Shown here piece after piece: positions 1-62,875 of a DNA stretch of 64,000 nt. The stretch's first letter is position 1, and each line of letters opens with the position of its first letter. This stretch comes from Ulota crispa. Taxonomy: Eukaryota; Streptophyta; Bryopsida; Orthotrichales; Orthotrichaceae. The notes below the pieces were generated by a model, which worked only from the letters and a program-made list of their open reading frames with translations, searched no databases and was not told the DNA's origin. Made by a program: the position numbers and the translations under genes. Where the stretch lies: assembly GCA_963920765.1 (NCBI GenBank), contig OY987242.1:3870789-3934788 (forward strand), in the 5' to 3' direction.

Positions 1-1595
1 ATCGGGAGAAAAATAAATTTTGTTAAATTTTTTATCAAACTGAGAAACTACCTTTTTTTTATTGTCATAATGAGTGCTTGGGAGTTGGGGCCATTCATGA
101 GGTCATCTACGCTGGAAGTTTGAATGAAACAGCCCAGGGTTTTCTTTTTGGTTTTTTGACCAATGGCTATGTGGCATTATTTAAAAATGGTTTGCTTGCT
201 GACTCCATCCCTATTTTAGTTGTAGTTGGAGTTGAAGGTGGCCCTTTTGTAGGATCATGGGATTTTTTTGTAGGCAAAACATGGTCACAGGCCTTTTTTT
301 TGTAAATATTTAAATAACCATTGACATTACTTAATTATTGCATAGAATTGGATTAGACAATACCTCAAATAAATTTAAAGTGATGGCATCAATTTTCAAT
401 TTGATGGGAACTTTATAAAAGCCTAGGATGCAACGCAATTTTCATAATTGCAATCTGACATTTTTTGAAATTTTTTCCCCCATTTTTTTCTATAGGCTTG
501 AAGCTCACCCTTTATTTTTGAGGCAATTGGCCCTTAAATTGCCCAAACAAGGCCTTTACACTAAGAGTTAAGGTCAAAACTTTAGAACATACTTTTATAG
601 TTAAGAGCCAATATTTTATATGGTTCCAATTTTAAGAATTGGGTCCTCCAAAAATGGGAAGCCAATTTTTGGCCCAAGGTCTATAATTAGATTTGATTGA
701 AATATGATTATTTGAATTTTTTTGAGATGAAATAATGATCTCAATACCTCTACTTGGTCTCTATTTAATCCTCTCTCCTAGAATTTTCAAAGTTTGCACT
801 AGTGGCCTCAACCTTTTGGCCTTGAGGCCTTTACACACAAAAGAATGACCCCTTTTATACTCAAAGAATGTTTGAGATTGTTCTTAACCCTTGAAGGCCC
901 GGTTGGTCACCATGACTAATTGATTGCCCCTCTATAATTGCTTTACATTGATCTACATTGGTGTGGCAAGTGCCCACACATTACAAATGTTGTTTCTAAA
1001 AATTGCAAAAGTTAACAATACATGCATTGCAAGAAGGGTAGCATGAAACCTAACGCCATGTCTTTGAATCTTCTCACAATTTTGGTTGCTTAAAAATAAG
1101 AGTACATTTAGTGAGGTGTTTTTTGCCTTCCATGATGCACCATGTATATATGATAATTTCTAAAAATTCCAGATGAAAAGCGGTTTTTTCTGACCTATAG
1201 AGTGTTTTTTTGATACCCAAGGGATAAAAAATTGTGCCCTTCTGCATATAGGGGTTAAGTAAGGCCGTTAGGGCTGAAAATTTGATCGAAGTGGCCCTAT
1301 AATATTCATGGCCGTGACTCCTACTGTAAAGAGGCCCTTAGACCCCCACAAACACATATGTGCAGTATACCAAGCCCAGTTAGTCTACCAAGTAAAAAGA
1401 ACCCAAGCATTTACACAGAAATCATTTGAGGTTTCCTGCCATTGAATTGGCACTACTTTACAAACGTTGGGGCAGTTTTCCGGTTGTTAAGTTATGGCAG
1501 CTTGATTTCAGCTTACTCTACGATCTCCAAAGATATGAGTTACTGTAGAAACTTGGCCCAGAGTACGACAGCATTCACGAGGTGTCGAGGCCATG
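1..1595. other. Non-coding AT-rich DNA, left edge
   Basis: I recognise no gene here. A 75-codon open frame at 78-305 has no recognisable domain and no splice partners. A possible weak TTAA-type element lies at 884-1258, starting TTAACCCTTGAAGG and ending with the inverse of TTAACCCCTATATG, but the arms diverge quickly, so I only mention it. The rest is AT-rich sequence with poly-T runs. Confidence 0.5.
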
Positions 1596-2320
1596 TTAAC
1601 CCCTAAAGGACCAAGCCCCCTTTTTGGGGACAAATGGGATTTCGGGCACGTATCTATGGCTAAACTATTTTGCGTGATTTTTTGAAACTTTTATGGGAGA
1701 TGGTGAATTCAAAGATCTGTGTGGGCATCTAATTTTTTCCTCATTCCAACATTTATTGAAGAAGTTCAAAATGAATTTATGAGAATTTTAGTTTGGCGGG
1801 CAGCCCAAAAGCTTCTTAAAAAATTGTATTTTTTTAAAATAAAAATTTGAGGTTAGTTCTTTAGACTTATGTACAAGTGGAATGCTTTGAATCATTGCAT
1901 TCTAATTAATGAGATGAAAGTTATGTGAAGTTTTAGTTTGCGTGGAGGCAGTGTTTTGAGATTCTCCACACCTACCTGCAAACTAAAACTTCTCATAACT
2001 TTCATCTCATCAATTAGAATTGAATGATTCAAAGCTTCCCACATGTATATAAGTCTAAAGAACTAACCTTGAATTTTTATTTTTTAAAAATGCAAATTTT
2101 AAAGAATTTTGGGCTGCCAACCGAACTAAAATTCTCATAAATTCATTTTTAACTTCTTCAATAAATGTCGGAATGAGGTAGAAATTAGATGCCCACAAAG
2201 ATCGTTGAATTCCCCATCTTCCATAAAAGTTTCAAAAAATTACACAAAATAGTTTAGTCATAAGTACATGCCCGAAATCCCAAAAGTCCCCCAAGGGGAC
2301 TTTGGTCCTTTAGGGGTTAA
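1596..2320. mobile_element. TTAA-flanked palindromic MITE (copy 1)
   Basis: The element is bounded by TTAA on both sides. The left end reads TTAACCCCTAAAGGACCAAG and the right end is its inverse for about 19 bases. The two halves are inverted copies of each other over most of the roughly 720 bp, folding around position 1960. This makes it a foldback-type non-autonomous DNA element. Relatives with matching interior blocks lie at 57011-57929 and 61995-62875. TTAA target duplications are known from the piggyBac, Kolobok and Sola3 superfamilies; which one applies is inference. There is no coding capacity. Confidence 0.8.
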
Positions 2321-4348
2321 AATAGTTCATAAGTTAGTAAGAATCCTGCTATGGAATATCCAGACAAGGTCTTGCTCACTTACTCTTGGTTGAAAAGGCC
2401 TACCTGATGCTGACTCCCTGTGGTGACTAGTGAGCAGGGTCCGGGAAATATTTGAGATTTTTCGGTAGATTTCCTTCAATTCTTGTATTGAGACGGTCTA
2501 TCAAGGAGCTCTTCCCATTACTTTCTCTATTTCATATTATAAGTGATTTTTTTAAAGACTTTTGACTGATTTTTTGCTGAAGTTTGTAAATTGCAAATTA
2601 TTTTTTCTCATTTCAATCGGCTAGCATTGAACTAGCGATCGGTTCTTCCAGGACCTTGCTGGTGAGTCCACCTCCCCTTTCTCAGTGTTTCTTTGCGATG
2701 CATGCTCATGGCAGAGAGACAGGAGAGCGAGAGAGCCAACTAAGTTACAGTCAACTGGCTCATTCACAAGCTCATTCACCATAAGTTACTGCAAACCCAT
2801 AAGCTTAGACCCACTTCTTAAAAAAGAGAAAAAAAGTTCGGGTCACATTTATCTAAACCCACTCTATTCATATGATTCTGGACTGTCCGTAAATTTCATT
2901 TAATCTTTAAACTGTACAAAATATCAAAACAAACTTGGGAGATCTACAGATGCTTTGCATGCATTTTTATAAATTCAGTTCTGATTCTGGACTGTAGAAT
3001 GAGGAAATTTTGTTAAAATATGGTATAAATGAAAATGCCATGGATGCTGAATTTTCCGTTGGGCAAAAACGAATGCATTGGATTTAGAACTTTGGATGTA
3101 CTGTAGTTGGTTTTTTATACTTTGCTCATGGTACTCGTCAGTAAAACGACAAAGTGAAAACGTGAATATTTTAACAGTTTTGTCCTTAACGCCACATTCA
3201 TTAAATTTGGAAGAAACCCTAATTTTGGGAATGAAGTAGGTTTAAGGGTAAGCACCTTTAAGAGAGCTCCAAATTTAAGGTGAAGTACAACTTGGGAATC
3301 TGGTTTTCCCAATTTAATAAATATGGCGTTGCTTATACATTCCAATTTTATACAAGATATAAGTTTAGATTCTTGCAATTTTTTTTCTAAATTACATCAA
3401 TTAGAAATTTTTATTTTAACTTTACATAAAAATAGTGAAGTTTACTTAAAGGTTGGGGTTGCAATATAGTTGTTTAGGGCCAATCCCAGAGGTGAAGGTA
3501 CTTTGACAAAATAGGTTGGTTATTGAACATAATTAAGGTATGTGCACCCACAAATGTCAAACTAAGGGTTTTGAACATGATGAGTATCAATAAACAACTA
3601 GTAAATATAGGATTCTATTAGGAACAGAAAAATAATGAGTTTGCACATTTGAATGTATTATTTGGATATTGTGAGAATAAGTTGTGAATTTTTAAAAAGC
3701 AAATTGCCATTGCACCCATAACCACTTTCAAGATTTCATGTTCACATGTTGTACATCCTTGTCATTACATCTATTCACTTCCACAGAGTTTCCAATATTT
3801 TAAAGGTGGCTGTTATGGGGACAGTGGTGTTTATGGTGTACATACCTTATAGGTATAACGTAAAATTGATGATTTCAACAAGCGTGGTATATTTCGGAAC
3901 GTAATGAAAGAATTGGGCCCCCAAAGGAGCCAGAGATGGCCCGCATTGAACTAGGGCAGAGGCAGGCAGATGGAGACCCAGCGACCTACATGAAGGAAGA
4001 CACTGCGGGGTAGGTAGCAGCGGCGGGCAGCGGCGGGCAGAGGATGAAGAAACCCGACGACATTCATCCACATCGACGTGCTTAACTACACAAGCAGAGG
4101 CAGAGAGAGAGCGAGGCAGAGCCCCAGAGGAGAGAAGAGTGCAGTCAAGGACTTCGGCAGTTGGTTCCACACCTCCACTGAAGTCCTTCTCTAAGCTCGC
4201 ATGCACTCGGAGCTCCTCCTCTCGTGCGCTCAGTTGCAGCGCTTGTTCACAACTTTTCCATTACACATTTCCTCTGCTCCACAATCCAACCTCCCGTTCT
4301 TTGCAAATTAAGTTCGGCTTCTTTATATTGACGTTACTTTCAATAATC
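2321..4348. other. Intergenic DNA and putative expansin promoter/5' leader
   Basis: No gene is recognised between the MITE and the expansin start codon. The last 450 bases are GC-richer, include a short GCGGCGGGCA direct repeat near 4018-4040, and probably contain the expansin promoter and 5' leader. I could not place a convincing TATA box. Confidence 0.4.
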
Positions 4349-6468
4349 ATGGTTGTCTATCAAGGTGCTACCGCTGCTGCTGCTCTGCTTCTTGTGGTGA
4401 TCATACATCTCGCCTCTTCCGTAGAGGCCTTTGCGCCTTCAAGCTGGAATACCGCGCATGCTACTTACTATGGCGGAGCTGACGCTTCCGGAACTCAAGG
4501 TGCGCGCGCGACTGGCTCACGTATTCAATTCGTAACGTTAGACGACGTGCTTAATGAGCACGTTGAGAGAGGTTGAGCGTGCATGATTGCGGTCCTTGTC
4601 GTCAATCGCCTTGTAGAATCGGCGTTATCGGTCGTAGGATCGGTCCTGTTGATGAGGTGAATTTATTGGCGCTTACTGTACAGCTGATGAATTCATTGTG
4701 TGCTGCGGTGCATTCTGCTTGAGCAATGTCAGATTGTATTCTTTTGTTGTATACGTACTGTTTTGCACGATGTTTCTCTCCATGCGATTGTTAACTCCGT
4801 GCTGCTCCCGCCTTGATTTGAACTTAGCCGCGCCAATTTCATCAAGCTGTTAGTTCTGTTCTTATTTGTGCTGATTTGCACAAAGCTTTTTGCTTAGTTG
4901 AACAAGTGCTGGTTTAAGTCAAGCTTTAACTCCGTGCTGCTCCTGCCTTGATTTGAACTTGACCGCGTAGAGGCTATGAACGCGCTTGAGCAATGTCTTG
5001 CATTCTTTTGTATACGTGTACTGTTTTGCACGATGTTTCTCTCCGTGCGAATGTTAACTCCGTGCTGCTCCCGCCTTGATTTGAACTTAGCTGCGCCGAT
5101 TTCATCAAGCTCTTAGTTCTGTGGTTATTCGTGCTGATTTGCACAATGTTTCTTGCTTAGTTGAACAAGTCCTGGTTTAAGTCAAGCTTTAACTCCGTGT
5201 TTGCTCCGCTTTGATTTGAACTTGACCGCGTAGAGGCTATGAATGCTTGTACTTCTGTGGTTGACTAAGTTTGTTAATTAGGAACGGATAATCGTTTAAA
5301 ATAGGCCAGGAGAATTCGATTTTCTAAGCGCCGTGATATCTCTTTTTGTTTGATTAGTTGCAGAAGGTATTCAGGAAGTTGAATTGGAAATTTCTGTGCT
5401 TTATTTCGGTGCTCATCTTTGAGCATTCTGTTTATAGCCGTGATGGACTTTGTGAGAAATAGCGCCATGCTTAGGCACTTGAAGAGGTGTGTGTGCATGT
5501 AAGTTTCTGTCCGTCGTCTCTGCCAGTGAGTTTGCTGATATCTGATTGTGTGTATTTGAATAGACAATGCATGATGTGTACTTGTGCAGGCGGAGCGTGC
5601 GGATACGGGAACCTCTACAGCACGGGCTATGGCACGAACACCGCAGCCCTCAGCCAAGCTCTCTTCAACTCCGGCCTCACCTGCGGCGCTTGCTATGAGC
5701 TCGCATGCGACTCCAGCGGCTCCCAGTACTGCATAGGCGCATCCTCTGTGATCGTCACTGCCACCAACTTCTGTCCTCCTGGCTCCGATGGAGGCTGGTG
5801 CGACTCGCCGAAGCAGCACTTCGACCTCGCCGTTCCCGTGTTCGACAAAATCGCCGATCACGGCGGCGGCGTCGTTCCTGTCAAGCACAGAAGGTACCGC
5901 TGTCTTGCTCAATTTATCAAATCCCGTGATCTTGCCACCCGAAACAGCAAACTTTTGTAAATTTCCCTGTCTCATTACAAGAAATCTTCACATTTTCCCC
6001 GTGAGTTGTTCAACATTTTTGTCTGTTTCTTCTATGATTTTTCCCTGTCTCACATTTCCCTGTTAAGACACACGGAAGCATATGCAAATCCTTTGACGAG
6101 AGTTTGCAGTGAATTAACGGCTGTGGCAGTTGATTGATCCGTGGCACTTGTCTTACAGAGTGCCGTGCGCAAAGACGGGAGGCATGCACTTCACCATGAA
6201 CGGAAATCCCTACTTCATTCTGGTTCTTGTGACGAACGTGGCAGGGGCCGGCGACGTGCAGCAGCTCTACATCAAGGGTGACGACACGGATTGGTACGGC
6301 ATGAAGCGCAACTGGGGGCAGCAGTGGGAGTTTTCGGGTAACAGCGACCTCGTGGGGCAAGCACTCTCTTTCAAAGTCGTCACGAGCGATGGCGCGACGT
6401 CGTTGTCCATGGGCGCCGCTCCTTCGAACTGGCAGTTCTCTCAGACTTTCGAAGGCGCCAATTTCTGA
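4349..6468 (+). CDS. Alpha-expansin (3 exons, 254 aa)
   Basis: Cell-wall loosening protein; expansins weaken cellulose-xyloglucan contacts without hydrolysis and act outside the cell. Exons are 4349-4499, 5590-5893 and 6159-6468, with GT-AG introns of 1090 and 265 nt and consistent phases. Residues 1-27 form a signal peptide ending SSVEA. The GH45-like domain follows, with GACGYGNLY at 52-60, paired cysteines (CGACYELAC, 82-90) and the HFD motif at 127-129. The C-terminal beta-sandwich (CBM63-like) domain includes WGQQWEFSG and ends [13 protein letters not shown]. Length and motifs match EXPA proteins (about 250 aa). The start was chosen because it gives the signal peptide; an in-frame upstream ATG at 4139 would add 70 residues of non-family sequence. 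Intron 1 carries a large tandem duplication. The subfamily is confident; the exact orthologue is not. Confidence 0.95.
4717..5250 (+). repeat. Tandem duplication in expansin intron 1 (2 x ~266 bp)
   Basis: Two adjacent units, 4717-4983 and 4984-5250, both start GCTTGAGCAATGTC and end with a GTAGAGGCTATGAA block. Each unit contains two versions of a 40-bp block beginning TTAACTCCGTG and running through CCTTGATTTGAACTT. The intron therefore carries an A-B-A-B arrangement with four related blocks. Spacing is well preserved, with scattered substitutions. Confidence 0.85.
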
Positions 6469-8328: not shown

Positions 8329-9106
8329 GGGAATTTTTTTATGGATATCCCCCAAGTTTGTCATATTTGTATAGATATCCCTAATTTCTCAAAAATTGCA
8401 CAAACACCTTTAAATCATAAATTTTAGACGTTTGTTTTGTTGTGTATGTCACTTCTTTCTCCCTTGTGCGCATGTTGTTTCTTTTTTGTTCTATTGCACT
8501 TCTTGCTTTAACCCTGAAGGGCCCAAAAGCCCATTGCAATTTATGTATGGCATATATACATACGTATTTGAGCTGCTCTGAGGGCTTTCCAAATTTTTTA
8601 TGCACCCACCATCATACAACCCTTCATTAATATGCATGGTTGTAACACTTAATTTCTAGCTGATTCAAACATTTGAATATTGATTGCGACTGTATTTGGT
8701 AATGTAGCTCCAGAGCCAAAGGACCCTTTAGGGGTTAACCCCTGAAAGTTTGAGCATGCCGTTGCAACCAATACAATACAAGGTGTTTTTCTTGTATTTG
8801 GAATAGATTCACCTTTACTATATTTGAGATCAACAAAGAAGTTGGAGAATAAATCAAAGCAATTCTAATGAGCTACTTGAGACCACAAGTTGAAACTACT
8901 TATTGGTAGCAAATGCCAATTATATGGCACCATATATATTATGCCCTATGGTCATTTAAGAGTTAACATTGGTTATGACGAAAGTAGTGTACACAACAAA
9001 ACAAATGCTTGAAAATCATGGTCCAAAGGTATTTGTGCAATTTGTGAAAATGCAAAGATAACCATACAAATATGACAAACTTCAACGATATCCATAAAAT
9101 TTTCCC
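8329..9106. mobile_element. Intron-family MITE with internal TTAA insertions (copy 1)
   Basis: The ends GGGAATTTTTTTATGGATATCC and the inverse ATCCATAAAATTTTCCC match the termini of the elements at 14862-15185 and 21851-22177. The interior also matches: GTTTTGTTGTGTATGTCACTT on the left arm and the CAACAAAACAAATGC inverse on the right. The 9 bases flanking each end (TGGTTTTAA and TACTTTTAA) agree at 7 of 9, consistent with an aged 8-9-bp duplication. It is about 450 bp longer than its relatives because TTAA-flanked sequence (8508-8966) sits in the middle. Confidence 0.65.
8508..8738. mobile_element. TTAA-flanked MITE inside another MITE
   Basis: It starts TTAACCCTGAAGGGCCC and ends with the inverse of TTAACCCCTAAAGGGTCC, lying in the middle of the 8329-9106 element. 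The TIR is short and degenerate. Its right-hand TTAA (8735-8738) is shared with a second possible element that continues to 8966 and ends with the inverse of TTAACTCTTAAATGACC. Confidence 0.5.
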
Positions 9107-14000: not shown

Positions 14001-17000
14001 TTCATTGATCATGTTGTAAAAAGACATCATATAAAAAGGGTCCAAATTTGATATCACCACAAATAATGATGAACACTGTATGTGTTTATTGCAACCTACT
14101 TAATATTGCGTCCAATAAGCCTCCATACGACGTACTGAAAACTACTGAAAACCAAAAAAGACACAAGTTTAATGGAAACTGAAAAAGACACAAGTCTCCA
14201 GTTGGCCATTTTTTTTGAGACAAAAGGAGTAATACTTTAGGTAGAAGTTTTGCAAAATGTAATGACATTTGCATACACTAGTGCAAAGGAGAGAGTTGCA
14301 GGATTGTTCTTTGTCAAAGTGAGCTACATTAAATACAAGCATTGGTGTAAAACAAAGGTTGTAGCAGATGGAGTGCAGTAACTTGGGTGAGGGCAACATT
14401 AAATTATTTGTTTACCTCTTTGGCACAATTTTCTGCATGGCAGAGATGCCAACGGAGAAAATGACGGCGTCGGCAGGGAAATGCTCGTCACCGCAAAGAA
14501 CTCCCGTGACGGAGCCTGAGGCTTCGTCAAGCACGAGGTCCGTCAAGCGTTTGTTGGAGAGAAAGCCACAGCCGTTGCCCTGCATGGCTTCTACCCAAGG
14601 CCGGAAGATCATCTCGCCCACCGTGCCACGGCACCACACGACGTCGAAATCTGGCTGCACATACTCTGCAGTTTACGGTGAAAATGGGGAAACTAAAAAA
14701 ATAAAAAATAAAAAAGTATCCCAATCTCACCAGAATCAATAAAGAGTATTCCATGTGTTAATCCAAAAAATGTTTCAAATACGCTCTCAAATTCAAGCTT
14801 TACCGGAGCAGGAGATTCTTTTTACACTTCATTGGATATACGTACAGCTATACAAAATAAAGGGAAAGTTTCATGGATACCCCTGAAGTTTGCAATATTT
14901 GCATAGATACCCCTGCTTTTTCAGAAATTGCACAAATACCCTTGGACCAAAATTTTCAGGCGTTTGTTTTGTTGTGCATGCCACTTCCCCTACTTCCTTT
15001 GTGCGCACATTGCTTCTTTTTTGTTTCATTACATTCCCTTCTTCAACATTAGTCATGAAGGAAGTACAAGCACAACAAATAAATGCCTAAGAATTATGGT
15101 CCAAGGGTCTTTGTGCAATTTCTGAAAAAGCTAGGGGTATCTATGCAAATATTCCAAACTTCAGGGGTATCCATGAAATTTTCCCAAAAATTAAACCTGC
15201 TAGAGAAAAAAAAAATTTAAGTTTAATCTATGGTGTTACTTGAGTTAATGAATGTCCTAATCTTTTGCAAACGGTATCAAAATCTTCGAAGTTTAATGAT
15301 TCTATTATCCATGGTAGTGCAAGAAGGCTTGGGAGTGAAATACAAGGAGAGGGAGGGTTTTGGATTGAGGACTGGCAAATGGTACAACTAGGTGGTTGGA
15401 TACACAAATGGGTCTCTATTTGTGTGAGTTCAAGTGCCTTAAAATGATTGTTGTTTAAAGTGTATAGAAAGATAAAATCGCCTTGTTGAGGGCTTTTCAT
15501 TGATAAAAAAAATGAAAAATAGATAATACTCTCTGTTGAAGAACTACGGAAAATTATCAAATTTGGAGAGAGAAATTCGCAATGACTTCAAAGATCTTAA
15601 CAAGGTAAAAAAAGACGCACCTGGTGGGCTAAGATAAAGTAATAGAGCATGCCCAAACACGCAGCAGCACTACAAAGCTCGCCCGGTGCAAAGAGCCCCA
15701 CTAATAGCATAGGGTTGAATGCATCCTTGTACACACGCTCGGAGCAGCCATACTCTCGGAACAGCTCCCGTGCACTTCCTGCCAGATTCCCACTACAATC
15801 TCTTCAAAATTGACACATCTCCGGTGCTTGCATACACTGAAAAAGATTGCAAAACGGAGCTAAACTAACCACAAAAACACTAAAAAACTTGGGAGTAGAA
15901 AGATTTGTACAGTACTTGAGTCATATTCTTCCCAAGCGCGGTTAGTGTTGTCGAAATCAACCACTGTCACACACCATAGCCACATGTCAAAAGCGTCCAA
16001 ACAGAGAATGTAGTTCACCACTAGAGCTCCATAAATCCTATAACAATGATAGAGCTTAACAAGCGTACTTAACTAATTTTAGACTATACAAGGTTCAGAA
16101 ATAATAATCCATATGCAAAACCTTGGGACATCTATGAAAAATATTCAGAAATCTATGTCTCTCAACATCAAAAGATCTCCCTGTGTTTAGAATTACATGG
16201 ATAGTCCATGTTTAGTTATTTATGGCATAGTATATTCAGACTGTTGATAATTTTAGCACAAGACTACGAAATCCAAGACTTTGTATCTTGTCACTCAGAT
16301 TTAGAACTACGGCGTCACCTGCATACATGAGACGTATGGCGGTCATGCGGTCCAAGAGCGGCAACCGCTTGAACTGCAATCACAAGCAAAGAATCAAAGG
16401 CTTATAAGAGAGAAGAAGAAACTGACAAAGATATTAGCTAACTAGAGGTGAGTTTTGTATAAAAGAAATTGGATGAGGTTGGATTACTAGGAGGTAGTAC
16501 CTGCGTGTAGACAAAAGTTCCCAGTGGGCTCGGTAAAGGAGGCATGTCTTGAAATATTGGTGATTCTACCTGCGGATGTGTACACAAGATACCACGACCA
16601 TCTTAAACCCTAAAAAATTAGAAGATCACAAAGATGATCAATCTAACAAGCACGAGAGCAAAGAATGGTATGTATATACAGTAGAACTTATCTATTAAAT
16701 ATGCTAGGACTAGAAGAAGTGTTCAATTTGTACAGGTTTTTGATTTAGATAAGTTGTACTGTAACGGCTTTAGAGTTGGGATACATTGTGTTGTTCACCT
16801 CTAAACCAGCAGGAGAGAATTGCGCAGACTTTGTCCATTTCGTGAAAGGTTGTAATCCCAATTCATCCACCAGAGCAAAGATGTTCTTGTATGGATACCA
16901 AAACCCTGCAAAAACAGGCAAAAGTTGCAAACACATGTAAAGTTGCAAAAACAGGCAAAAGTTGCAAATGCAAGCAAAAGTTGCAAAAAACAGGCAAAAG

Positions 17001-19593: not shown

Positions 19594-25388
<5,795 letters not shown>

Positions 25389-26943: not shown

Positions 26944-29900
26944 TCAAGCAGTTGCTTCAGAAAACCCTAAATTCTCTACGAGCTTTGTGATGCTCTTCTT
27001 GCCTACACTGAAGCTGTCCTTGAGCCTCTTGCTCGCCGAGCGTGGTATTGTGTTTAAAGGCAACGGAGAGTCTCTTGCCTCAGGAACTGGAGCTGCATTG
27101 ACAGTCGGTGTGATTTGCAGGGAGTCCTGAAGTGGAGTGTAGAAAGGTGAAGGGACGGAGCCATTGCTGTCATCTGGTGATACCGAAAGCTTGCCTCGTA
27201 GTTCTGGCCATTCCTTCGTCACGTGCTTGAGAATGTTGGCTTCTGCTCTGGATCCCGTGCTGGAGTCCGTGCGTCCTGCGTTCCAGGCCAGGTACGTTCA
27301 TCAGATACCTAAACCTTAAACCGCCTAAACCCTAAAGGAGCCAAGTGTTTCAAATTCATACTACTCCCTTTGTCCCTCTAAAAACGTCCAAATCTAACAC
27401 ATTTCTTGTACCTCTAAAAAGCTCATTTCAAACGCTGAGAAAGCGTTTATCATGTTCAATGATCTCATGGGGGCAAGTTAAGCAATTAGAGAGCATTCCT
27501 CTCCTAACAAGCTTGGCCTTGCCCATATGAGGTACCATTGTTGCTACTAATCTTTAAATCATCAATAATGAGGAGCTGGCAACATGCACAAATATGGTAC
27601 TTTTTGCATGGAATTTGGGTGCCAAAATGAGCGACATCAAAACTAGAGATTTTGAATTCATTTGGTAGATGGTATATTGATTCTAGAATGCATGTGTCAC
27701 TATCACAAAGACTAAAAACACAGTTAATCCTTCGCAAGGAAGTTTTTTGGACGTTTTTAGAGGGATAGAGGGAGTATTTTATAGACAGGAGATCGAAACC
27801 GTTGATCACGAGAAGCAATAGAGAGAACATTGCACACAAAACAAGCCTGGAAAGTGCCAAAAAAGCACACGTGACCTAATTAGGGTTACACGTTGAACTA
27901 CGTTTAGTTCGACCTTGTTGAAGTAACAATTCTCTACAAGTCTTACGGACGTGTTGGACAATACTGCAGAAGTGTAGCTGGCGCAAGTAGTGATCCGACA
28001 CAGCCAAGCAAAAAAATCAGGGGAATGGCAATGGAACTCACCTCCAGTGCTACCTCGAGAGCTTCGTGCACCAGACTTTGTGATTCGAGGTTTAGGGTTT
28101 ACTTGAGCACCGTCTTCCCAAAACACTTCGACTTTCTCATTCGGAGTGACAACGCTGGTGTCAAGCTTACTTTTGATGAGTGTTGGTTTGACCATGTGCT
28201 CGCCATATTCATCAGATGCATCAGACCTACTACTACTCCGTGACGTTTGCAGGTTTCCGGTTTCCTCGATTGATGTGGGAATCTCATCATGGAATGATGA
28301 TGATGCGTGGAGGATTTCAGGCGACGCTCGTTGACTGCAGGATTGATACGAACTGCCGGGACATGAGCTCGAAGTGCGCATCTCTCCAGAGAATCTGCTT
28401 GGACTGCATCGGAAGCCATTTCGTGCTTCCAAGGGTAAAGATAGCACCATGGGGATGCTCTTTTCTTTCATCAACATCCACTTCTCTTTCTCCGTGAGGC
28501 ACACGAGCTCATGCTTTCTGAGCTTTCCGGTTGTGGTGGTGATCTCGCCACTCACGTCACGAGAACTCTCCATGCTACTGTCTTCGGTTTGGTAGGATCC
28601 TGTAATAGGTCGTATGATAGTAGATGCTTCTCTGACTTGAGCCGCTACCTTGACAGCTTCTGTGGCATTCAGGCGTGCTAGTTTCCATGGGTTGATCCCC
28701 ACTGACGCCTTTTTCTGAGCTTGTTTTGTAACAGCCTTTGTCGGTGTTGCTGTTTTTGCAGCAGATGGCGTCGATTCCAAGTCTCCACTGAATGCCAACA
28801 CTTGCTGGTTCCACAGTTGCAAGTAAGCAGGCCAACCTTTTACAGGACTGTTGTGTGCAATAGAAAGAAGGGAAAATTTTCAAGCATGCTCCTGAAGTTT
28901 GCAATATGTACATAGATACCCCTGCTTTTTCAGAAATTACACAAATACCCTTGAACCAAAAAATATAGGTGTGCTTATTTGTTGTGCTTGTACTTCCTTC
29001 ATGACTAATGTTGAAGAAGGGAATTTAATAAAACAAAAAAGAAGCAACGTGTGCACAAAGGAAGAAGGGAAGTGGCATGCACAACAAAACAAAGGCCTGA
29101 ATTTTTTTTGGTCCAAGGGTATTTGTGTAATTTCTGAAAAAGCAGGGGTATCTATGTAAATATTGCAAACTTCAGGGAAGAATTTCGTACTCACTTAGCT
29201 ACCAAGATTCATAGTTCCATGTATTTTCCCTTGTTTTGGTTTTACAACAAAAAGTTAAGTATTTAAGTCAAGTATTTGTACCTGCTGATGCTCTACAAAC
29301 ATGCGAGGGGGAGTACAGAAGACACCGCTCCGCAGTGCCAGAGCCCCGGCGGAGCTGTATCCACTAATCCCCGTGGAATTTGAGCTTGCAGGCGATGATG
29401 TCAAGCTGTTGAACCCGTCCCCTTCCGCGGTATCATGCTCCAAGCCCTGTTCTCTTGTAGCCAGGATGTAATCGTATGTTGTGATTCCCTAATCCCAATG
29501 CACCACAAATTAGCCTAATAATAATAATAATTAAGGCCAACGTGGAAATATTCACATGCTGTTTTGAGTAGACTTGCCTTTTTACTGTGATAATGTTTTC
29601 TTATGTGAACTGTAGAAGCAGCATAAGGATTTGATGAATACAGAACCGGAAGGAAGATTCTGACTGACTCTCTCACCTTGTGGATTAGAATGAGGTGGAA
29701 GAAGAAAAGCTGACACAACGGGATTGTTGCCACCATAGCCAGCAGGGACAGCAACAACTGCAGCACAACATCCCAATCCCAATACAATATATGTAAATTA
29801 CATTTACTTTTGCATACTTTTGCATACGTTTGCATCGTTTCCATACTTTTCTGAAGTTCAAGTTTATGTAGAAAGAAAGGCAGATGGTGACGATGTGGAC

Positions 29901-33467: not shown

Positions 33468-35579
33468 CGTGCCAGCAACACTGCCACTTACCAAACTTGG
33501 CAGTAACTTGAAAAATTCACATATTCCTCCACAAACACAAGAAGACTCTTCACTGCAATGCGCGTCTGAAACTCTCCAGCACGAGCTCAGCTCTCCCAAA
33601 GCAGCAAAAAGCCCGGCTATGGCGGTGTTCGACACGAGGATACTCCTGATCTTTACCAAGAACGGCGTCGATGCAAAACACGAGGTAAAAGCAAACTATG
33701 AACTACTGCATGGCAACCCTGATTTGCATTTCGTCACTTCTTTGCAAGCTGCAAGCGCCAGGACCGCCATAGATCACCGGTGTCAGCTCTCGTTTGCACT
33801 GCTGCCTGCCAGATTGCTCCATAGCTCCAACTTTCGATCGTCACAAACTGCAAGGCTACTGCTTTCTTTCTCTCCACACAGTCATACCCGATGTGACGGA
33901 ACTTCAGTGCAAACAGACGATGTAGTGAAGCTGCAAAGGAAGGAAGAGAGCTTGGTGTAGAGCGAAGGAAAGCTATGGAGTATGCATGGTGGACAAGCTG
34001 CGGAGTGCGTGGTGAGAGCGACGGTCACGACGACGCTCCAGCGTTGCTACTTAGTGAGCCTGGTTATGAGTGTCAGGGCGCTGCAGCTTTGGCCATTGAT
34101 TGAGATGCGTTGCGCCTGCGGGGGTGTTCAGTGGGGCAGACATGCGACGCACCATGGCTGCTGCTGCAGGAAGGGTGTCGCAATGCGCAGCTCCTCTTTC
34201 TCTCTCTTGCAAACAAGGTCGGCGAACTAGAGAAACAAAAGTTGAGGGAAAATGTGATGAGTTACTGCAGTGCTACTTTGAGGCTTTTGCAATGTTTGAG
34301 AAGTGTTTTGTTTGGGAATATTTGGGGGATGTCGAGTGCAGTGAGTGCAGAGGATTGATTCCCATGTTACCCCCTCCTCCCCGCTTTTTTTTCCATGATG
34401 CCTCTCTGCCAAAACTGACAGTGTTGCTGTCAAGGTGTTTGATTTGAGCTTTCAAGTGCCTTCTGTTCTTTTCCGGTGTCCTCGAAGATCCAACTGGCCT
34501 GGCCTGAGCCGCCTGACGACGGAACCATGCCTCGAACCGATCCTATAACCACGCCTGGAACCGAACCAAAACGAGCTTCGCCAGCGTTGCATTGTCAGAT
34601 GGTCTGACACACTTGAAGCATGGATGATAAGTGTTTTGGGGTCTCTCAAAGTATTTTCATCGCACTCCATCCTAAGATTAGTGTGTTAACATTTTAAAGA
34701 CCACACACATTTTCTCAAAACTCACTAGAAATTAGGGACAATAAATTTAGATGTGTAGTTTAATCAAATATGGATCCAATTTGAATGATCCAATTGTATA
34801 ATTGGAACAAACATATTGTTTATTGTAAAGTATCAAAATTTCAACCAAATTTACAATTGGAGGTGAAATAATATAATGATTGAGTAAGTTGTATGTGGAA
34901 AATTTTTAGTGTTTCATATTTGTGTAGTTTTGAATGTTAACACTTCATGCAAGCTTTACTTATTGTATTTTTAAAAAGCAAGATTTCCCACCTTTTCAAT
35001 AAGACCAATTTCACACAAAATGGATAAAAATAACAATCACAAGGGGTAGCTAAGTGAGAAAAAAGGGTCAAAATCCTGCTTTATTTGTCATCTTAAAGTG
35101 GTGCTACAAGAAATTTGATAAATGCCATGAAAAATCTGATTGATGAAAAAAATCAAGAATTGACCTTAAGTGTAAGGTGACAAATCTTAAAAATGAAATG
35201 ACAACACCATTTCAATAGATCTTCAAAAACTATGATTCTATTGCTACCACATACAAAAACAATACAAGCGTATTTCTCAAGCAATTAAAAAAAAAATAGG
35301 ACCACACAATTGAAATTTGACATTCTTCTTCAACATTTGATGTGTTATGTTGTTGCTATAATCCATACTTGACCAAAAATGGATACGTGTTTTGAAGTCA
35401 TGGTATATAAACACCATTATTTGTCAACTCACATACCTGATTTCATTATTGTTTTTTCAGATGGATGCAAAATTCTTGTGATCACATGCATCCTTCAAGA
35501 CCAAATTCCAAATTGTTGAGCAATTTTATTGTTTATGCCAGAAACCACTCTCTGCAACCACAATATGGTTGTGTGGTCC
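33468..35579. other. DHHC gene 5' flank and intergenic DNA
   Basis: The first several hundred bases are GC-richer and should hold the 5' leader and promoter of the minus-strand DHHC gene. Open frames here (33469-33960, 33982-34447) show no recognisable domains and I do not call them genes. From about 34.7 kb on, the DNA is AT-rich with no supported feature. Confidence 0.45.
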
Positions 35580-35647
35580 TTAACCCCTCAACGCCCTGGG
35601 TATCACAAAGTAGCCAAATTTCTGTTGCTGGGGCGTTGAGGGGTTAA
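35580..35647. mobile_element. 68-bp TTAA-flanked micro-MITE
   Basis: Begins TTAACCCCTCAACGCCCTGG and ends with the inverse of TTAACCCCTCAACGCCCCAG. At least 17 terminal bases pair without mismatch, leaving only about 30 bases of interior. The ends belong to the same TTAACCCCT family as the much longer elements at 1596, 57011, 59855 and 61995. Confidence 0.75.
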
Positions 35648-36598
35648 AGGGTTAAATAGAACACCTAGCTTTAAACTTCTGAGGGAGGGAAAACAACGTG
35701 TTGCAAATCATTTTTGGTATCTTTTGAAACATTTTTGTATGTCAATAAATAAAGACAAACATGAAGATGGTTGCACTCCTTTGAAGTGCTCAAGAATCAT
35801 ACGTATACGTATATATGGTCATTCCAAAGACATCTTGGATTGGACTCTATATCGGTAGAAACATATAAATGAAAGCCTAAAAATTTTGGTACACATGACA
35901 CAAACAAACATCACATCAATTGAGTGTTTATCCGTGTGTTTGATTGCCTAAATAAGAATCATAGATAAATTATGGCAAAAATCAAGTTGCAGGATACTTT
36001 TCATCGAAGTCCCACACGAGGATTATAAGGATCCTAGAAGACTCGACAAAATCATATAAGAGTTTCTTAAACAGTCATCAAAGATTCAGCATAGAAAATC
36101 ATCTAATATTGCTGTTCATGTGGAAAGCCAAAGAGATAGGAAATCAACTCATGAAATACTGGTCATTTCACATTAATGATACGCATACAGTAGCACAAAA
36201 GATATCCAAAAGAATTTTCTTACAGGCCATCTCGTTGCCAAGGTACTTCCCATACAAATGCAGATAAGTCGCTCCAAACATGGGTCGACCGCAATAATTT
36301 GCATCTGCACAGGATATCAAATTTCTAACTAACCCTTGAAGGTCGACCTAAAGGCAGATACAAGCAAAGGAGCACCAAATCTGACGAAGTGAGATGAATC
36401 TTCCCTTCTCTCGTGGTAATGGACCTTCCTAGGTTAATCCTGATGAGAGAACTGAGCTAAATTCTGAATTATGGTGTATCAATGAGTGCACAAAGTGTCT
36501 AATAAGTACAGATTCATACCTATTTGAAGCATGGTATGCCATTTACTGCCATTTGCAGATTGTAGGTAAAAATCACATTAAAAAGACTACAACAAGTT
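35648..36598. other. Intergenic DNA and V-ATPase c'' 3' flank
   Basis: No additional gene is recognised. The right-hand part presumably contains the 3' UTR of the minus-strand V-ATPase subunit gene that ends at 36599. Confidence 0.45.
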
Positions 36599-38524: not shown

Positions 38525-39859
38525 GGGAAAATTTTAAAAATACCCCTCAATTCTTTCAAAATGTCAAATATATCCCTATATTACTTGAAATATCAAAAAT
38601 ACCCCTGGCTTTATGTAGTAATATCAGTTATACCCCTAGTTAACTTTGAGAATATCATTAACCCCTGAGCGCCTAGGCTGATTTCACCAATATCAGGGTT
38701 TTTGGAAAATAGCAACTTTGATGCATTGTATCTTAGTCAATTGGATGATTCACAAAAACTAACCATTGAAAATAGTGGAGCACATACTTAGAAAAAGGCT
38801 TGCAAATTTCGGGAACAACAAACCGTGGGAGATGGGAGATTATAACATTTTGATCAAACAACATGTGATGACAAAATCTCATTTTTTGGTAGGTAATTGC
38901 TATTTGATAATTTTTACAAAATTATATAAGCCCTTGATTCATCTCAAATTTTATGAGCAGCAAGATTAGATGTAAATGCACACACTTGTAAATTATTGAA
39001 GATTGCACTTCTTTTTATGTCAAGTTTTAGGGCTTCAAATGGCCATTGCACGGAAAACAATAACCAGCATAGTTGGTGACGGTTGCTGTAATAAGAATCT
39101 AGAACATGCTTGAACCCTTGCCAACAACTTTCCCGCTACCACAAAGCTTACACAAAGAAGCTTGCAAGGGATATTGACCGGTTGCAGCTTGTAAAACACT
39201 ACTTGCCACCACGCCCATGTTGCCCTATACGGTGTTTCACCAAATCAAATCTCTTGCAACGCTTGTACAACAATTTGGCTTTCCTCACCATTACTCCATT
39301 GAGATGGACAACTTGAATGCCTTCATAATTGTAGTCTATAGCAAGACCAAAAAGTTAGATCCAACGCCTCAAAACAAGGCTTTAAATCAAGGGAGGCAAT
39401 ATATGGGGCGTTGTGGCACTCAAGGGTTAATACCCTTAGTTTTTTGTGCCTCTTTATTACAATTTTTTTTAAATATCAAAATGACAACAAAAATTACTAT
39501 GCAATCAATGCAATGGCTTTGACCAGAATAGACTTACATGCAAACACCCTATTTAGAGCTTAAAGAGCTTGCTTCCAAGATTTGGCTTGCTTTCAACTTA
39601 CATCTAGTTTTTGTAGTTTCTATTATCATCCAAGTATTTATAAAAACTTGCAAAAAGACGCACGAGAAAGTTAGGAATATATTTATAATTCAAAAAATAC
39701 AAGAGTATATTTGATGTTTCATAATAATTGAGGGTACCAAAGAATTAGAAGTATAATTGATATTACTACACAAAGCCACGGGTATTTTTGATATTTCAAA
39801 TAATATAGGGGCTTATTTGATATTTTGAAAGAATTGAGGGGTATTTTTGATATTTTTCC
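38525..39859. mobile_element. 1.3-kb element with repeated-block TIRs and 9-bp duplication
   Basis: Flanked by identical TAAATTAAA at 38516-38524 and 39860-39868. The ends are GGGAAAATTTTAAAAATACC and the inverse of GGAAAAATATCAAAAATACC. TIRs of at least 120 bp consist of AATATCAAAAATACCCCT-like blocks repeated about four times. A TTAA-flanked element (38658-39430) makes up most of the interior. A 9-bp duplication fits Mutator-like elements; 8-bp families are an alternative if one end base is misassigned. No transposase is recognised. Confidence 0.82.
38658..39430. mobile_element. TTAA-flanked element nested in the 38525-39859 element
   Basis: Starts TTAACCCCTGAGCGCCTAGG and ends with the inverse of TTAACCCTTGAGTGCCACAA, 14 of the first 16 bases agreeing. 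Outside it on each side the host TIR blocks continue. Two short open frames inside (39110-39316 and 39217-39522) overlap in different frames and show no recognised domain; they could be residual coding sequence. Confidence 0.6.
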
Positions 39860-53402: not shown

Positions 53403-54215
53403 GGGGAAATTACAAATGGGAATTGATATGCGTACCACACCTTCTTGACTATCCCACCACACCCCGAGGTAAATTTTAGATTTCTACCATCAAAAAACTA
53501 ATTTGAGAATTTGGAATTCAGATTTGGACTTAAAGACCATGATTTTGTTTAGAATCACAAAAAATTATAATTGAACAACACCCAATAAAAACGCTTATCT
53601 TTTTTATAAACAAAAGTAAAAATAATACTTTTCTCCCAAGCTAAGCTTTTTCATTGGGTGTTGTGCAATTATAACATGTTTTTATGGTTCTTGACAAAAT
53701 CACGGTCTATGAGTCCAAATTTGAATTTCAAATTCTTAAATTCAGGTTTTTGATGGTAGAAATCTAAAATTTACCCTAGGGTGTGGTGGGATAGTCAAGA
53801 AGGTGTGGTACGCATATGAATTCCCATTACAAATAGGGGCATGAAAATGTAAAATAATACAGAAAGAGGTGCATTTTCAAAATAATTACAAATGGAAGCA
53901 CAATTTCAAAAAAAATGTAATTTTTTGTAATTTTTTTTGGTTTGGACATTTGTTGATTTAGATACATCACACTAATTGTTAGCTAACTTCCAAAAAATTA
54001 AAAAGTTTCCAAAATTTGCCATACCTTTACTAAAATTTCTTTATTTAGGCTTGATTTGGAGAGACCTTCAAGTTTTTTGGAATGAGCTAAGATTTGTGAT
54101 ATATCTAAATCAACCAATATCTAAACCAGAATAATTACAAAAATTACAATTTTTTGAAATTGTGCCCCTGTTTTTAATATTTTACTTTGTTTATGGCCCT
54201 ATTTGTAATTTTCCC
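53403..54215. mobile_element. ATAGGGGCA-type MITE, interrupted by another MITE (copy 1)
   Basis: Ends GGGGAAATTACAAAT... and the inverse GCCCTATTTGTAATTTTCCC. Removing the insert at 53418-53825 and one copy of its 9-bp duplication leaves about 396 bp, close to the 404-bp intact relative at 58207-58610, and restores the family sequence ATTACAAATAGGGGCATGAA. Arms contain repeated ACAAATAGGGGCA-like blocks. No coding capacity. Confidence 0.85.
53418..53825. mobile_element. 408-bp MITE with 9-bp duplication, nested (copy 1)
   Basis: Starts GGGAATTGATATGCGTACCA and ends with the inverse; identical ATTACAAAT lies on both sides (53409-53417, 53826-53834). Almost the whole element is an inverted repeat, with arms of about 200 bp meeting near 53620. 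Relative at 60707-61120. Long TIRs with a 9-bp duplication fit Mutator-like MITEs; that class assignment is inference. Confidence 0.9.
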
Positions 54216-57010: not shown

Positions 57011-57929
57011 TTAACCCCTAAAGGACCAAGAAACGTTTTCACCAAAAACTCTTCAAAAATGCCATTTTTAGAGCATCAACCAAATTTGAAATCAAAAACA
57101 TTTTTATGCATATGTAACCATAGGATCCTATAGTAAGATAATTTTAAAATACTTGGAAAAAATTTCAATATTTTCCATTGCGTGGGTTGGAAGATACAAT
57201 GGTTTAGGTATTCAAAAACGCTTAGTGAAAATCGGGCAGCTACCCTTCAGAAGGTGAAATTCCTAAGGAAAAAGGCCGTGTCAGTGGTGCTTTTCTAGAT
57301 TACTTATCCCACCTAAGTAGGGTACATGTCAAAAAAGTTTCAAATCATTTGGAATTATACAACATAAGGGAAAAAATAGTAAGTGAAAAAAAGTATAGAA
57401 TGATTCAAAACACTAAGTTGTTGAGAATTTAATTATGGAAATGAAAATGCCAGTCCCAATGGTTGGAATGATATAATTAACAATTTGCATCCTTGGGCTC
57501 TATTTTTTTTTCCAAAATAATGAAAAATGAGTAAAATAAATGACTGCAAAGTTTATTTTAGAGTAGAGACTCCATACCTACCTGCAAACAAAAACTCCTC
57601 ATAATTTTTATTTCATTGATAAAACGAAATGATTCAAAGCTTTCCACATTCACATAAATCTCCTAAACCAATTTTAAATCTTAATTTTTTGAAAAAAGCA
57701 ATTTTTTTAAATTTGCCCAAGTTGCCCGCTAAGTGAAAAAAACAACACATTAGGCCATATCTTCTTGTTCATACTTTCAAATGCCATGAAATTTAGTGCA
57801 TATGAAAGGTAAACCTTATTCCCACATTCTATTTCAGCCTAACATATGAAAACCTCCAGTCACAGGTACCTGCCCAAAATTGCTATGTTGCTAAAAAAAA
57901 AAAAAGAGGCTTATTTCTTTAGGGGTTAA
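57011..57929. mobile_element. TTAA-flanked MITE (copy 2)
   Basis: Starts TTAACCCCTAAAGGACCAAG and ends with the inverse of TTAACCCCTAAAGAAATAAG. The right half shares blocks with the element at 1596-2320 (ACCTACCTGCAAAC, then ATGATTCAAAGCTTTCCACA). At 919 bp it is longer and less symmetrical. No recognised coding sequence. Confidence 0.75.
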
Positions 57930-58206: not shown

Positions 58207-58610
58207 GGGGAAATTACAAATAGGGGCATGAAAATGTAAAATATTACAGATAGGGGCACAATTTTTTTTTAAATTGTAAATTTTTGTAATTTTTTTTTTG
58301 GTTTAGATATTAATTGATTTATACACATCACACAAAATTTTAGCTCATTCCAAAAAAATTAAAGGTCTCTCCAAATCAAGCTTAAATAAAGAAATTTTAG
58401 TAAAAGGGATGACAGTTTTTGGAAACTTTTAATTATTTTGGAAGTTAGCTAACATTTAATGTGATGTATCTAAATCAACAATGTCCTAACCAAAAAAATT
58501 ACAAAAAATTACAATTTTTTTTAAAATTGTGCCCCCATTTGAATTTTTTTTGAAAATGCACCCCTATCTGTAATATTTTACGTTTTCATGCCCCTATTTG
58601 TAATTTCCCC
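58207..58610. mobile_element. ATAGGGGCA-type MITE (copy 2, uninterrupted)
   Basis: Starts GGGGAAATTACAAATAGGGG and ends with the inverse over about 50 bases. Each TIR holds two blocks, ATTACAAATAGGGGCA and ATTACAGATAGGGGCA. The flanks are A-rich, so the duplication cannot be read. It is the intact comparator for the nested element at 53403-54215. Confidence 0.88.
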
Positions 58611-59089: not shown

Positions 59090-59338
59090 TTAATTCTTGA
59101 GCGCCTAGTCCATATTCATCAAAATTTAAACCCATTCACACTCAATTTAACTTAATTGTCATCACAAACAAGATTCACAAAATCTAACCGTATTGCATGG
59201 TAGGTGAGACAAGTTCCAAAGTATAAGGAAAAGGATAAATGGTTTGACCGTACCAATAGAAAGATTATAACAAGTCAAACAAGAAATTTTTCATTTCTGA
59301 GTGCCCCATTTTGAGGTCCTTGGGCGCTTAGGGGTTAA
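59090..59338. mobile_element. TTAA-flanked MITE (short, diverged)
   Basis: Starts TTAATTCTTGAGCGCCTAGT and ends with the inverse of TTAACCCCTAAGCGCCCAAG. The shared GCGCC block matches the nested element at 38658. 249 bp, no coding sequence. Confidence 0.6.
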
Positions 59339-59854: not shown

Positions 59855-60507
59855 TTAGCCCCTAAATGCCCAAGTGACCAAATTTGGGTGTTTATAAAAC
59901 TTTGAGGATGAATAAAACCTTGTCAAATCATTATTTTTTAAATTTTTTTTGTAATATAAGGATTTTTGAAGTCTATTTTCAACGTTAAAAATTTGATTTT
60001 GAAAATGAAAGTTGATGATTTTTAGACTCAAGATTTTGGACAAGGGTGTCCACTACAATCTTAAGTTTTCTACTGTTGGAAGAACTTGAAAATGAGCCTC
60101 AAATACACTAGAGCTTGGAGAAAAATCCACATTCAAAATCCATTTAAAAATAAATAAAGGAATAGATTTTGAAAGCCGTAAATTGATTAAATGTAGACAT
60201 GTAATGACCTTAAACCTCATATTTTTTTGGTCACCAACTTTTAAGATTTGACATGTGGAAAGAGGATTGGAAAACTTCAAGTCACTTTTACAACTTTAAC
60301 ACCCTCTTGTTCAAACATTATAATTTTTCAAACCATAAGTGATATTATTGTGATTTCTTTTGCAATGTGATTTCTAACATGTTTATTTTAGATTTGTATA
60401 GTTACAATTGAAAAAATCTTGATGAAATTTATGAAAAGGTTGGTTGATTGTTTAGTTTCATGGAAGTTCCAAGAAGCTCATAAAGGCCTTGGACATTTAG
60501 GGGTTGA
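59855..60507. mobile_element. TTAA-family MITE with altered target sites
   Basis: The ends CCCCTAAATGCCCAAG and the inverse of CCCCTAAATGTCCAAG are a near-perfect TIR. The flanking tetramers are TTAG and TTGA, each one change from TTAA. The interior arms are partly inverted (AAATTTGATTTTGAAAATGA and similar blocks). 653 bp. Confidence 0.65.
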
Positions 60508-60706: not shown

Positions 60707-61120
60707 GGGGATTGATATGTCTACTACACACTTTCATCTATTCTACCACACCCTTGGGGTAAATTTTAGATTTCTACCATCAAATAGTTGAATTTGAGAA
60801 TTTAGAATTCAGATTTGGATTTAGAGACCTTGATATTGTCTAGAACCATACAAAAAAAGGTTGTAATTGAACAGCACCCAATGAAAATGCTTAGCTTGGG
60901 GGAAAATAATTACTTTTACTTTTGTTTATAAAAAAAAGATAAGATTTTTTATTGGGTATTGTTCAATTAGAACCTTTTTATGACTCTAAATTTAATCACG
61001 GTATTTAAATACAAATTTGAATTCCAAATTCTCAAATTCCGCTTTTGATGGTAGAAATCTAAAATTTACCCTAAAGGTGTGATAGAATAGCTGAAAGGGT
61101 GTGATAGACATATCAATCCC
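60707..61120. mobile_element. MITE with 9-bp duplication (copy 2)
   Basis: Starts GGGGATTGATATGTCTACTA and ends with the inverse ATCAATCCC. Flanks CAATGATAA and CAAAGATAA agree at 8 of 9. Arms share GGTAAATTTTAGATTTCTAC and the AACAGCACCCAATGAAAA block with 53418-53825. More diverged than copy 1. Confidence 0.82.
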
Positions 61121-61129
61121 CAAAGATAA

Positions 61130-61994: not shown

Positions 61995-62875
61995 TTAACT
62001 TCTGAAGGACCAACTATCCCCCAAGGGGACAAATGGATTTTAGGCATGTACCTATAGCTAAAATACTTTGTGTTATTTTTTAAAACTTTTATTGAAAGTG
62101 GGGAATTCAAAAATCTACGTGGGCATTTAACTTTTTCTTCATTTGGACATTTGACAAAGAAGTTATCAAGAATTTTCCAAAATTAGGGAAGAAGGGGTAA
62201 TTTGGGCAAGGCCTCTTCTTTGTAAGTGGATATTGACTCCAAAGAGGTTGAGCCCTTCTAGGCACAAGGTGTGGACACTTGAGCAAAGGGGAGTGGAGTG
62301 CAAGGTAGCCATCTTGAGGGACTCCCAAACCTCCATTCCTTTTGCCCCTTGTAAAATTGGTGCTTTAATTTTTGAGCAGCTTGAGTAATTGTTTTTTGAT
62401 CCATTTTCTTTCAAGTTGTAGTAGATTAAGATTCCTTGGTTTTTACCGTTTGGATCAAAATAATTCAGATTTCTGAATTTTACACAAATCCTCCAATTTT
62501 GCCTAGTTTACTTGCAAAATTCATGACCTTGCATTCAAATTTTTTTTAAAGTATGCTACACACCTCCAATTCATTTGCAAATTCTCCAATACATACCCAA
62601 CTTGGTCTTCTACATGGAGAAACTAAACATCAACTTTGTGTAAAACAATTTTTTTGCTATAAGAGTGGTTAAAGGATTTTGAAATTTTTGGATAGGAAGA
62701 GAATTTTTTTTCTTCACTTTACATGTCAATACCTCACTCTTTTTTATCTAAAATAAGCTGAATTTTTCCCACAAGTACCTCCCAAAATCTAGGACAAGAC
62801 CTTATGGTTGGATTTTAGTTTAGTTTTTTTTTCCTACCTTTACAAAAAAAAAGGGCTTGGTCCTTTAGGGGTTAA
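61995..62875. mobile_element. TTAA-flanked MITE (copy 3)
   Basis: Starts TTAACTTCTGAAGGACCAAC and ends with the inverse of TTAACCCCTAAAGGACCAAG. The left arm matches 1596-2320 block by block (CCAAGGGGACAAATGG, GGGGAATTCAAAAATCTACG, GTGGGCAT, GACAAAGAAGTT). 881 bp; the right arm is less symmetrical. No recognised coding sequence. Confidence 0.75.

Follow-up and report, generated by a model that had tools for sequence, protein, structure and literature searches.

The TTAA-flanked repeats in the 64-kb stretch of Ulota crispa DNA that we analysed (the window) are real insertions. Judged by their ends, their target and the transposase genes of the same genome, they are very probably non-autonomous DNA transposons of the piggyBac superfamily. 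Their inverted ends take the form TTAA-CCCYTNANNGNCC and begin CCC(C/T)T next to TTAA, as in that superfamily: piggyBac of Trichoplusia ni and piggyBac-like elements have the same TTAA target, termini starting CCC(C/T) and a PF13843 transposase with a DDD triad. A resemblance to the piggyBac terminus had been noted in a reading of the window made from its sequence only (the sequence-only reading), and it is strengthened by the presence, in the same genome, of PF13843 genes bounded by ends of the same class.

Paired termini and the elements they bound

The exact terminus motif TTAACCCCTNANNGNCC has 7 matches in the window, and 12 when up to one mismatch is allowed. At the latter threshold, Markov-shuffled windows gave 0 matches in nine runs and 1 match in one run. 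Genome-wide (274.8 Mb, 157 contigs), the pattern TTAACCCCTNAANGNCC occurs exactly 9,646 times on the forward strand and 9,624 times on the reverse strand, a total of 19,270, and its reversed-pattern control gave 1 + 0 = 1 match.

We assessed the pairing of termini in 264 kb, comprising the window and the first 200 kb of C1, the same contig. An inward-facing partner (up to three mismatches) lies within 1.6 kb of 48 of the 51 strong matches (up to one mismatch), as compared with an outward partner for 20/51 and a same-direction partner for 29/51; partners at three mismatches are partly due to chance, shuffled windows having 4-15 such matches against 34 in the real one. The orientations of next neighbours within 1.6 kb at up to two mismatches are likewise mostly inward (+- 29, -+ 11, ++ 5, -- 4), with a weaker inward excess at up to three mismatches (+- 37, -+ 22, ++ 20, -- 12). 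The sequence-only reading had described nine elements, seven of them with confidence, that begin and end with the motif in inverted orientation. The motif or a variant is present at all nine of the start coordinates it gave, and with this degree of inward pairing the motif is not single as often as paired, so that the description stands.

Eight of the nine elements are corroborated (Table 1). The exception is 59090-59338, which has a poor left end, shows poor end symmetry (9/20 bases) and has no relative that we could find in the 264-kb sample. The elements starting at 8508 and 8735 are both real, but they belong to two families, have one TTAA in common and each have a separate relative on C1. 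The first matches C1:87161-87392 (232 bp) at 81% over 187 bp, up to the terminus common to both, and the second is 79% identical to C1:138825-139066 over 168 internal bp; one of the two probably inserted at the TTAA adjoining the other. The overlooked element 34686-35655 has the ends TTAACATTTTAAAGACC (left) and TTAACCCTTTAAGGACC (right, nested copy left out), and without its nested copy it aligns with C1:49970-50881 at 78.7% identity; the 910 columns run from base 8 of both sequences through to their final base.

Table 1. Elements and other palindromes in the window
Feature	Position	Strand	Remarks
Possible further element, 375 bp	884..1258	.	Motif pair; 76% identical to a C1 element over 133 bp
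Palindromic (end-end) non-autonomous piggyBac-type element, 725 bp (probable class)	1596..2320	.	TTAA both sides; exact inverted ends
Non-autonomous element, 231 bp	8508..8738	.	Right TTAA in common with 8735..8966
Non-autonomous element, 232 bp, other family than 8508..8738	8735..8966	.	Back to back with 8508..8738
Element of 970 bp, 906 bp without nested copy	34686..35655	.	Overlooked in the sequence-only reading
Mini-element, 68 bp	35580..35647	.	17-bp perfect inverted ends; nested in right inverted repeat of 34686-35655
Non-autonomous element, 773 bp	38658..39430	.	74% to C1:138155-139145, both ends coincide
Rearranged relative of ~940-bp family, 919 bp	57011..57929	.	Ends and internal block match C1:97023-97962
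Uncertain element, 249 bp	59090..59338	.	Right end fits pattern; left end 4 mismatches
Non-autonomous element, ~650-bp family	59855..60507	.	CTAAATGCCC ends; 82-83% full length to two C1 copies
Deletion derivative of ~940-bp family, 881 bp	61995..62875	.	Blocks match C1:97023-97962
Other palindrome	14862-15185		Without TTAACCCC ends
Other palindrome	20144-20459		Without TTAACCCC ends
Other palindrome	21849-22179		Without TTAACCCC ends
Other palindrome	28891-29176		Without TTAACCCC ends
Other palindrome	53415-53828		Without TTAACCCC ends
Other palindrome	53879-54183		Without TTAACCCC ends
Other palindrome	58207-58610		Without TTAACCCC ends
Other palindrome	60707-61121		Without TTAACCCC ends

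Several families are represented. In the ~940-bp family, C1:97023-97962 and C1:77464-78408 are 82% identical over their full length, and the members of a second family of ~950 bp (C1:52018, 83265 and 123276) are 81-88% identical among themselves; the two families have their ends and short patches in common. Relative to C1:97023-97962, element 57011-57929 has 376 bp of its interior inverted (80% identity), and element 61995-62875 matches it over the left 199 bp (80%), an internal 257 bp (78%) and the last 29 bp (100%). The full-length relatives of 59855-60507 are C1:154087-154740 and C1:197940-198589. The view that the interiors are mostly unrelated therefore needs qualification: several unrelated interiors do go with one end design, but 57011, 61995 and 59855 are related to C1 copies. 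The elements do target TTAA and have inverted repeats, as proposed, but many copies, at 650-970 bp, are above the classic MITE length. Two composites of 1,512 bp, C1:177893-179404 and C1:193123-194634, lie in opposite orientation, and both join a member of the ~940-bp family to ~600 bp of the second ~950-bp family. Elsewhere in the window, open frames at 5475-5957, 19594-20076 and 23985-24503 encode domains typical of ordinary plant genes: expansin (DPBB, EXPB1), aspartic protease and saposin-like. These domains, and a LEAFY gene in the genome, agree with a land-plant source.

piggyBac transposase genes and their ends

A genome-wide profile search with PF13843 (piggyBac transposase) gave at least 120 matches in ~116 places, with a best E of 1.3e-73, from the 116 scored of 528 candidates. 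Fourteen control genomes gave no matches, to which we attach little weight. Most of the listed copies have stops. Locus L019 (C2:34594948-34595949), however, has 334 aa of the domain uninterrupted by stops, and L041 has an open frame of 436 aa. The best solved match of L019 is piggyBat from Myotis (PDB 9c0f, 1.2e-21), with the three aspartates aligned; the hosts differ, and the two are likened by the transposase alone. L041 matches the solved moth piggyBac transposase (6x67, 3.6e-20). Of the 14 copies looked at, 7 retain the full set of three catalytic aspartates, namely the open copies L019 and L042 and five with stops in the domain (L009, L011, L013, L014 and L018). At least one is changed in L010, L016, L017 and L041 (the third is lost in L041), and not all were found by pattern in L012, L015 and L020. 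The loci on the minus strand are L012, L015, L019 and L020. In L042 (C1:1178600-1184599) the transposase gene consists of two open pieces of 134 + 302 aa, and upstream of it is a 196-aa open frame without a Pfam match; this locus is possibly an intron-bearing or domesticated piggyBac gene.

The boundaries of one transposase-bearing element could be placed by comparing two coding copies, C3:13130262-13135288 and C10:11524996-11530021, each extended to 10 kb. The copies are 90.455% identical over 5,029 columns (5.03 kb). Similarity starts at A 1976, with TTAACCCCTCATCGCC (TTCACCCCTCATTGCC in the other copy), and stops within one base of A 7002, with the inverted TTAACCCTTCATTGCC in both; the flanks are unrelated. 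Both copies are bounded, within one base, by inverted TTAACCCYTCATYGCC ends, and at the local terminus density the chance of both boundaries coinciding with termini is ~2e-7. At ~5.0 kb this element differs in length from moth piggyBac, given as 2.47 kb in passages of PMC10813416 and PMC10140906. Two further loci have comparable right-hand ends. At L014, TTAACCCTTCACCGCC lies 1.4 kb past the transposase domain and a relative of its last 180 bp, 79% identical, extends to this end too. At L041, TTAACCCTTTAGCGACC lies 1.8 kb past the domain, and a relative of this end, 70% identical, finishes at the corresponding base, 1.9 kb beyond the transposase C8:13755199-13756332. The relatives of both of these ends also stop at the terminal TTAA.

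Across the 14 loci, an inward right-hand terminus is present in five (exact in L009, L014 and L018, at up to one mismatch in L041 and L042), where ~3 would be expected by chance at a density of 0.136 per kb per strand. Only L009 and L018 have a convincing terminus pair; the pair at 659/6360 in L041 is tentative, its left end being weak. Within 1.5 kb on each side of the other nine loci we found nothing better than two mismatches (L011, L020). When the 14 loci were compared by BLAST with the window and the C1 sample, 0 of 157 matches overlapped paired elements. Thus, nothing beyond the termini ties the transposase loci to the paired elements.

The ends fall into at least three subtypes: CTAAAGGACC and CTAAATGCCC, which are the commonest; CTCAYYGCC; and CTTTANNGACC. 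The end type of the 5-kb element (CTCATYGCC) recurs on the non-coding C1:61678-62331 (CTCACYGCC), and the L041-type end CTTTAGCGACC recurs on C1:79712-80126 and C1:49970-50881. Close copies are few: genome-wide, there are 3 matches to the 60 bp at the left end of the 5-kb element, and 3 and 2 matches to the final 180 bp at two other transposase loci. With at least three end subtypes, and few close copies of the transposase lineages looked at, the earlier proposal of one transposase family mobilising many partners is too simple. One check suggested for that proposal was to look for a full-length element with the same ends that encodes a transposase. The 5.03-kb PF13843 copies have ends of the same class, but none with the commonest ends was found, and among the 14 loci read there was no PF13843 gene between TTAACCCCTAAAGGACC ends.

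In principle, then, the commonest families, those with AAAGGACC or ATGCCC ends, could have been moved by Kolobok or Sola3, leaving only the CTCAYYGCC and CTTTA ends to piggyBac. Such a division would agree with two negative results: in the loci read, neither AAAGGACC nor ATGCCC ends were found to bound a transposase gene, and no sequence is in common beyond the termini. We nevertheless consider it improbable, because the ends grade into one another along a single scaffold, TTAACCCYTNANNGNCC, because CCCTT and CCCTC are conserved terminus motifs of animal piggyBac according to a passage of PMC10813416, and because piggyBac transposases are plentiful in the genome (the profile searched being PF13843). 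From the shared scaffold and target, we infer that the commonest ends also use a piggyBac transposase.

The target site

Comparison with uninserted relatives bears on the status of the flanking TTAA. The region 8508-8966 sits within a high-copy palindromic repeat, and when its flanks were joined with one TTAA, 40/40 scored places (of 2,999 candidates) matched across the junction at 81-85%. In four local alignments at this site both elements are absent and the flanks are flush around the single tetramer TCAA. C1:138825-139066 (242 bp) is nested in C1:138155-139145, the relative of which at 38658-39430 in the window lacks the nested copy; there the uninserted site, in 38658-38889, reads TTGA. 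Two relatives of C1:52018-52972 without the insertion both have CCAA at the site. Lastly, removal of 64 bp from the nested element 35580-35647 gives GTGGTCC-TTAA-AGGG, and the relative C1:49970-50881 reads GTGGTCT-CTAA-AGGG.

Uninserted sites were counted in 7 of 17 junction-spanning rows (four for win_8508, two for c1_52018 and one for c1_138825). The rows for c1_177893, c1_193719 (two) and c1_194983 were rejected because they lie within related elements or merely duplicate terminal sequence of the elements themselves, those for win_38658 and win_59855 as poor alignments, three further win_8508 rows because they are gapped at the site, and c1_197940 because the match adjoins on the other strand.

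There is one tetramer at the site without the element and two with it. In the uninserted relatives the flanks are flush around one TTAA-like tetramer, which shows that this tetramer is part of the target, as the sequence-only reading had proposed. Sites that were never filled and sites that were precisely excised look alike in such comparisons. The counted empty sites never read exactly TTAA (TCAA, CCAA, TTGA, CTAA), the exact tetramer being seen only in the weak case at C1:197940; given that the relatives are 70-85% identical, this pattern would fit insertion only into copies that read TTAA at the time.

Around the elements themselves the tetramer is strongly conserved. For the exact 16-base end CCCCTAAAGGACCAAG, TTAA precedes the end at 3,038 places genome-wide, the first base is changed at 140 and the last base at 100. 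These counts bear on a second alternative, in which the elements would be Tc1/mariner-like, duplicating TA, having A as their own first base and preferring TTAA sites. A few termini do have ATAA or GTAA in place of TTAA, and if all sites were TTAA the duplication of TA and of TTAA would give the same letters, so that the four-base reading leans on the transposase link too. However, the outer T is kept in 3,038/3,178 cases and the inner A in 3,038/3,138. The outer base is therefore not free, as it would be with a target of TA only, and the transposase-bearing elements with such ends encode PF13843. A Tc1/mariner-like origin is thus very improbable. Least credible of all is that TTAACCCC is part of the elements themselves, with no target duplication: TTAA nearly always adjoins the inverted repeat, but the uninserted relatives keep one tetramer between flush flanks and the nested 68-bp case amounts to 64 bp plus one tetramer, and we set this idea aside unless each uninserted site is a four-base replacement.

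Our confidence in the piggyBac assignment, although high, stops short of certainty because the tetramers at the counted empty sites depart from TTAA and because no interior sequence is shared with the transposase loci.

Palindromic derivatives and the size of the population

Fold-back and palindromic transposon derivatives are a known kind of element, and two piggyBac-type copies resemble them in being palindromes over their whole length. Aligned end to end with its own reverse complement, element 1596-2320 shows 86% identity over 735 columns, and its predicted fold is one hairpin (z -40 against 20 shuffles). The second, C3:13128829-13129554 (726 bp), is 96% identical to its own reverse complement and 79% identical to the first. 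Each half of 1596-2320 matches the first ~370 bp of C1:97023-97962 at 74-75%, and the halves of C3:13128829-13129554 match the same ~370 bp. By these alignments, both palindromes are end-end derivatives from one end of a ~940-bp relative, and they differ from other fold-back derivatives in stemming from one end of a piggyBac-type family. The existence of two related copies that are 21% diverged suggests that the palindrome multiplied as such, although gene conversion between the arms could also account for arms that are alike. In the 200 kb sampled on C1, none of the paired elements proved to be such a palindrome of a TTAACCCC element.

The window also contains eight other near-complete palindromes of ~290-415 bp (Table 1), some of which open alike (GGGAATTGATATG-like or GGGAAAGTTTCATGGATAC-like). 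As these do not have TTAACCCC ends, they point to further palindromic element families in the genome. Separately, two inverted-repeat structures, C1:45782-46798 and C1:118748-119764 (L021-L040), lie 72,966 bp apart and have the same alignment figures, which suggests a recent duplication or an assembly repeat.

The 28 high-confidence elements account for 5.2% of the window's sequence and for 10.0% of the 200 kb sampled on C1, and coverage by homology is 7.1% and 12.3%, respectively. Exact termini number 24 in the 264 kb (~91 per Mb) as against 70 per Mb genome-wide, the two patterns differing by one position. By rough extrapolation, scaled from one chromosome end and the window, elements with piggyBac-type ends would make up ~7-9% of the genome, in ~20,000 copies.

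The population could have arisen as follows. Several lineages of piggyBac-type transposase would have bound the ends, cut the elements out and inserted them at TTAA sites, among them sites next to or within older insertions. Short, long and palindromic derivatives would have come from larger elements through internal deletion, rearrangement and duplication of ends, and would then have multiplied in trans. Excision would presumably leave a restored TTAA and no footprint, as in the moth element. That all of this amounts to a native system working now or until lately, free of footprints, with lineages matched to their own end subtypes, self-transposed palindromes and the genome share estimated above, is a possibility that we advance only tentatively and would not call likely.

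The sequence-only reading supposed that such families are rarely described in land plants, but piggyBac in plants is already in print. Passages of PMC4438587 place it among the superfamilies present in every group studied, land plants among them, a passage of PMC8086355 gives piggyBac-like elements in fungi, plants and metazoans, and PMC10004981 names PiggyBac, in passing, among seven angiosperm MITE superfamilies. An excerpt of PMC2528002 has only five other superfamilies described in plants as of 2008, and one of PMC10813416 mentions short TTAA-flanked non-autonomous piggyBac derivatives for animals. Among the literature matches listed, mostly outside subscription journals, there is no description of a moss or bryophyte piggyBac population of this kind; the excerpt from a Niphotrichum paper has only the word 'piggybacking'. 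In comparison with animal piggyBac, the population described here has a land-plant host, thousands of non-coding derivatives and transposase copies that are diverse and mostly decayed; in comparison with the piggyBac-related MITEs of angiosperms, the difference is that ends of the class can here be linked to transposase genes of the same genome. Three features are notable: the scale for a land plant, the tie between resident transposases and ends of the class, and the occurrence of palindromic derivatives.

According to a passage of PMC10905368, every DNA transposon found in plants leaves a footprint. The present elements show the extent to which a land-plant genome can be colonised by non-autonomous derivatives that have piggyBac-type ends, and the palindromic end-end derivatives bear on the need for both ends. 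PiggyBac transposition restores the donor site exactly. A native plant piggyBac population this large would therefore be a natural test of seamless excision in plants, and may be a source of plant-adapted ends.
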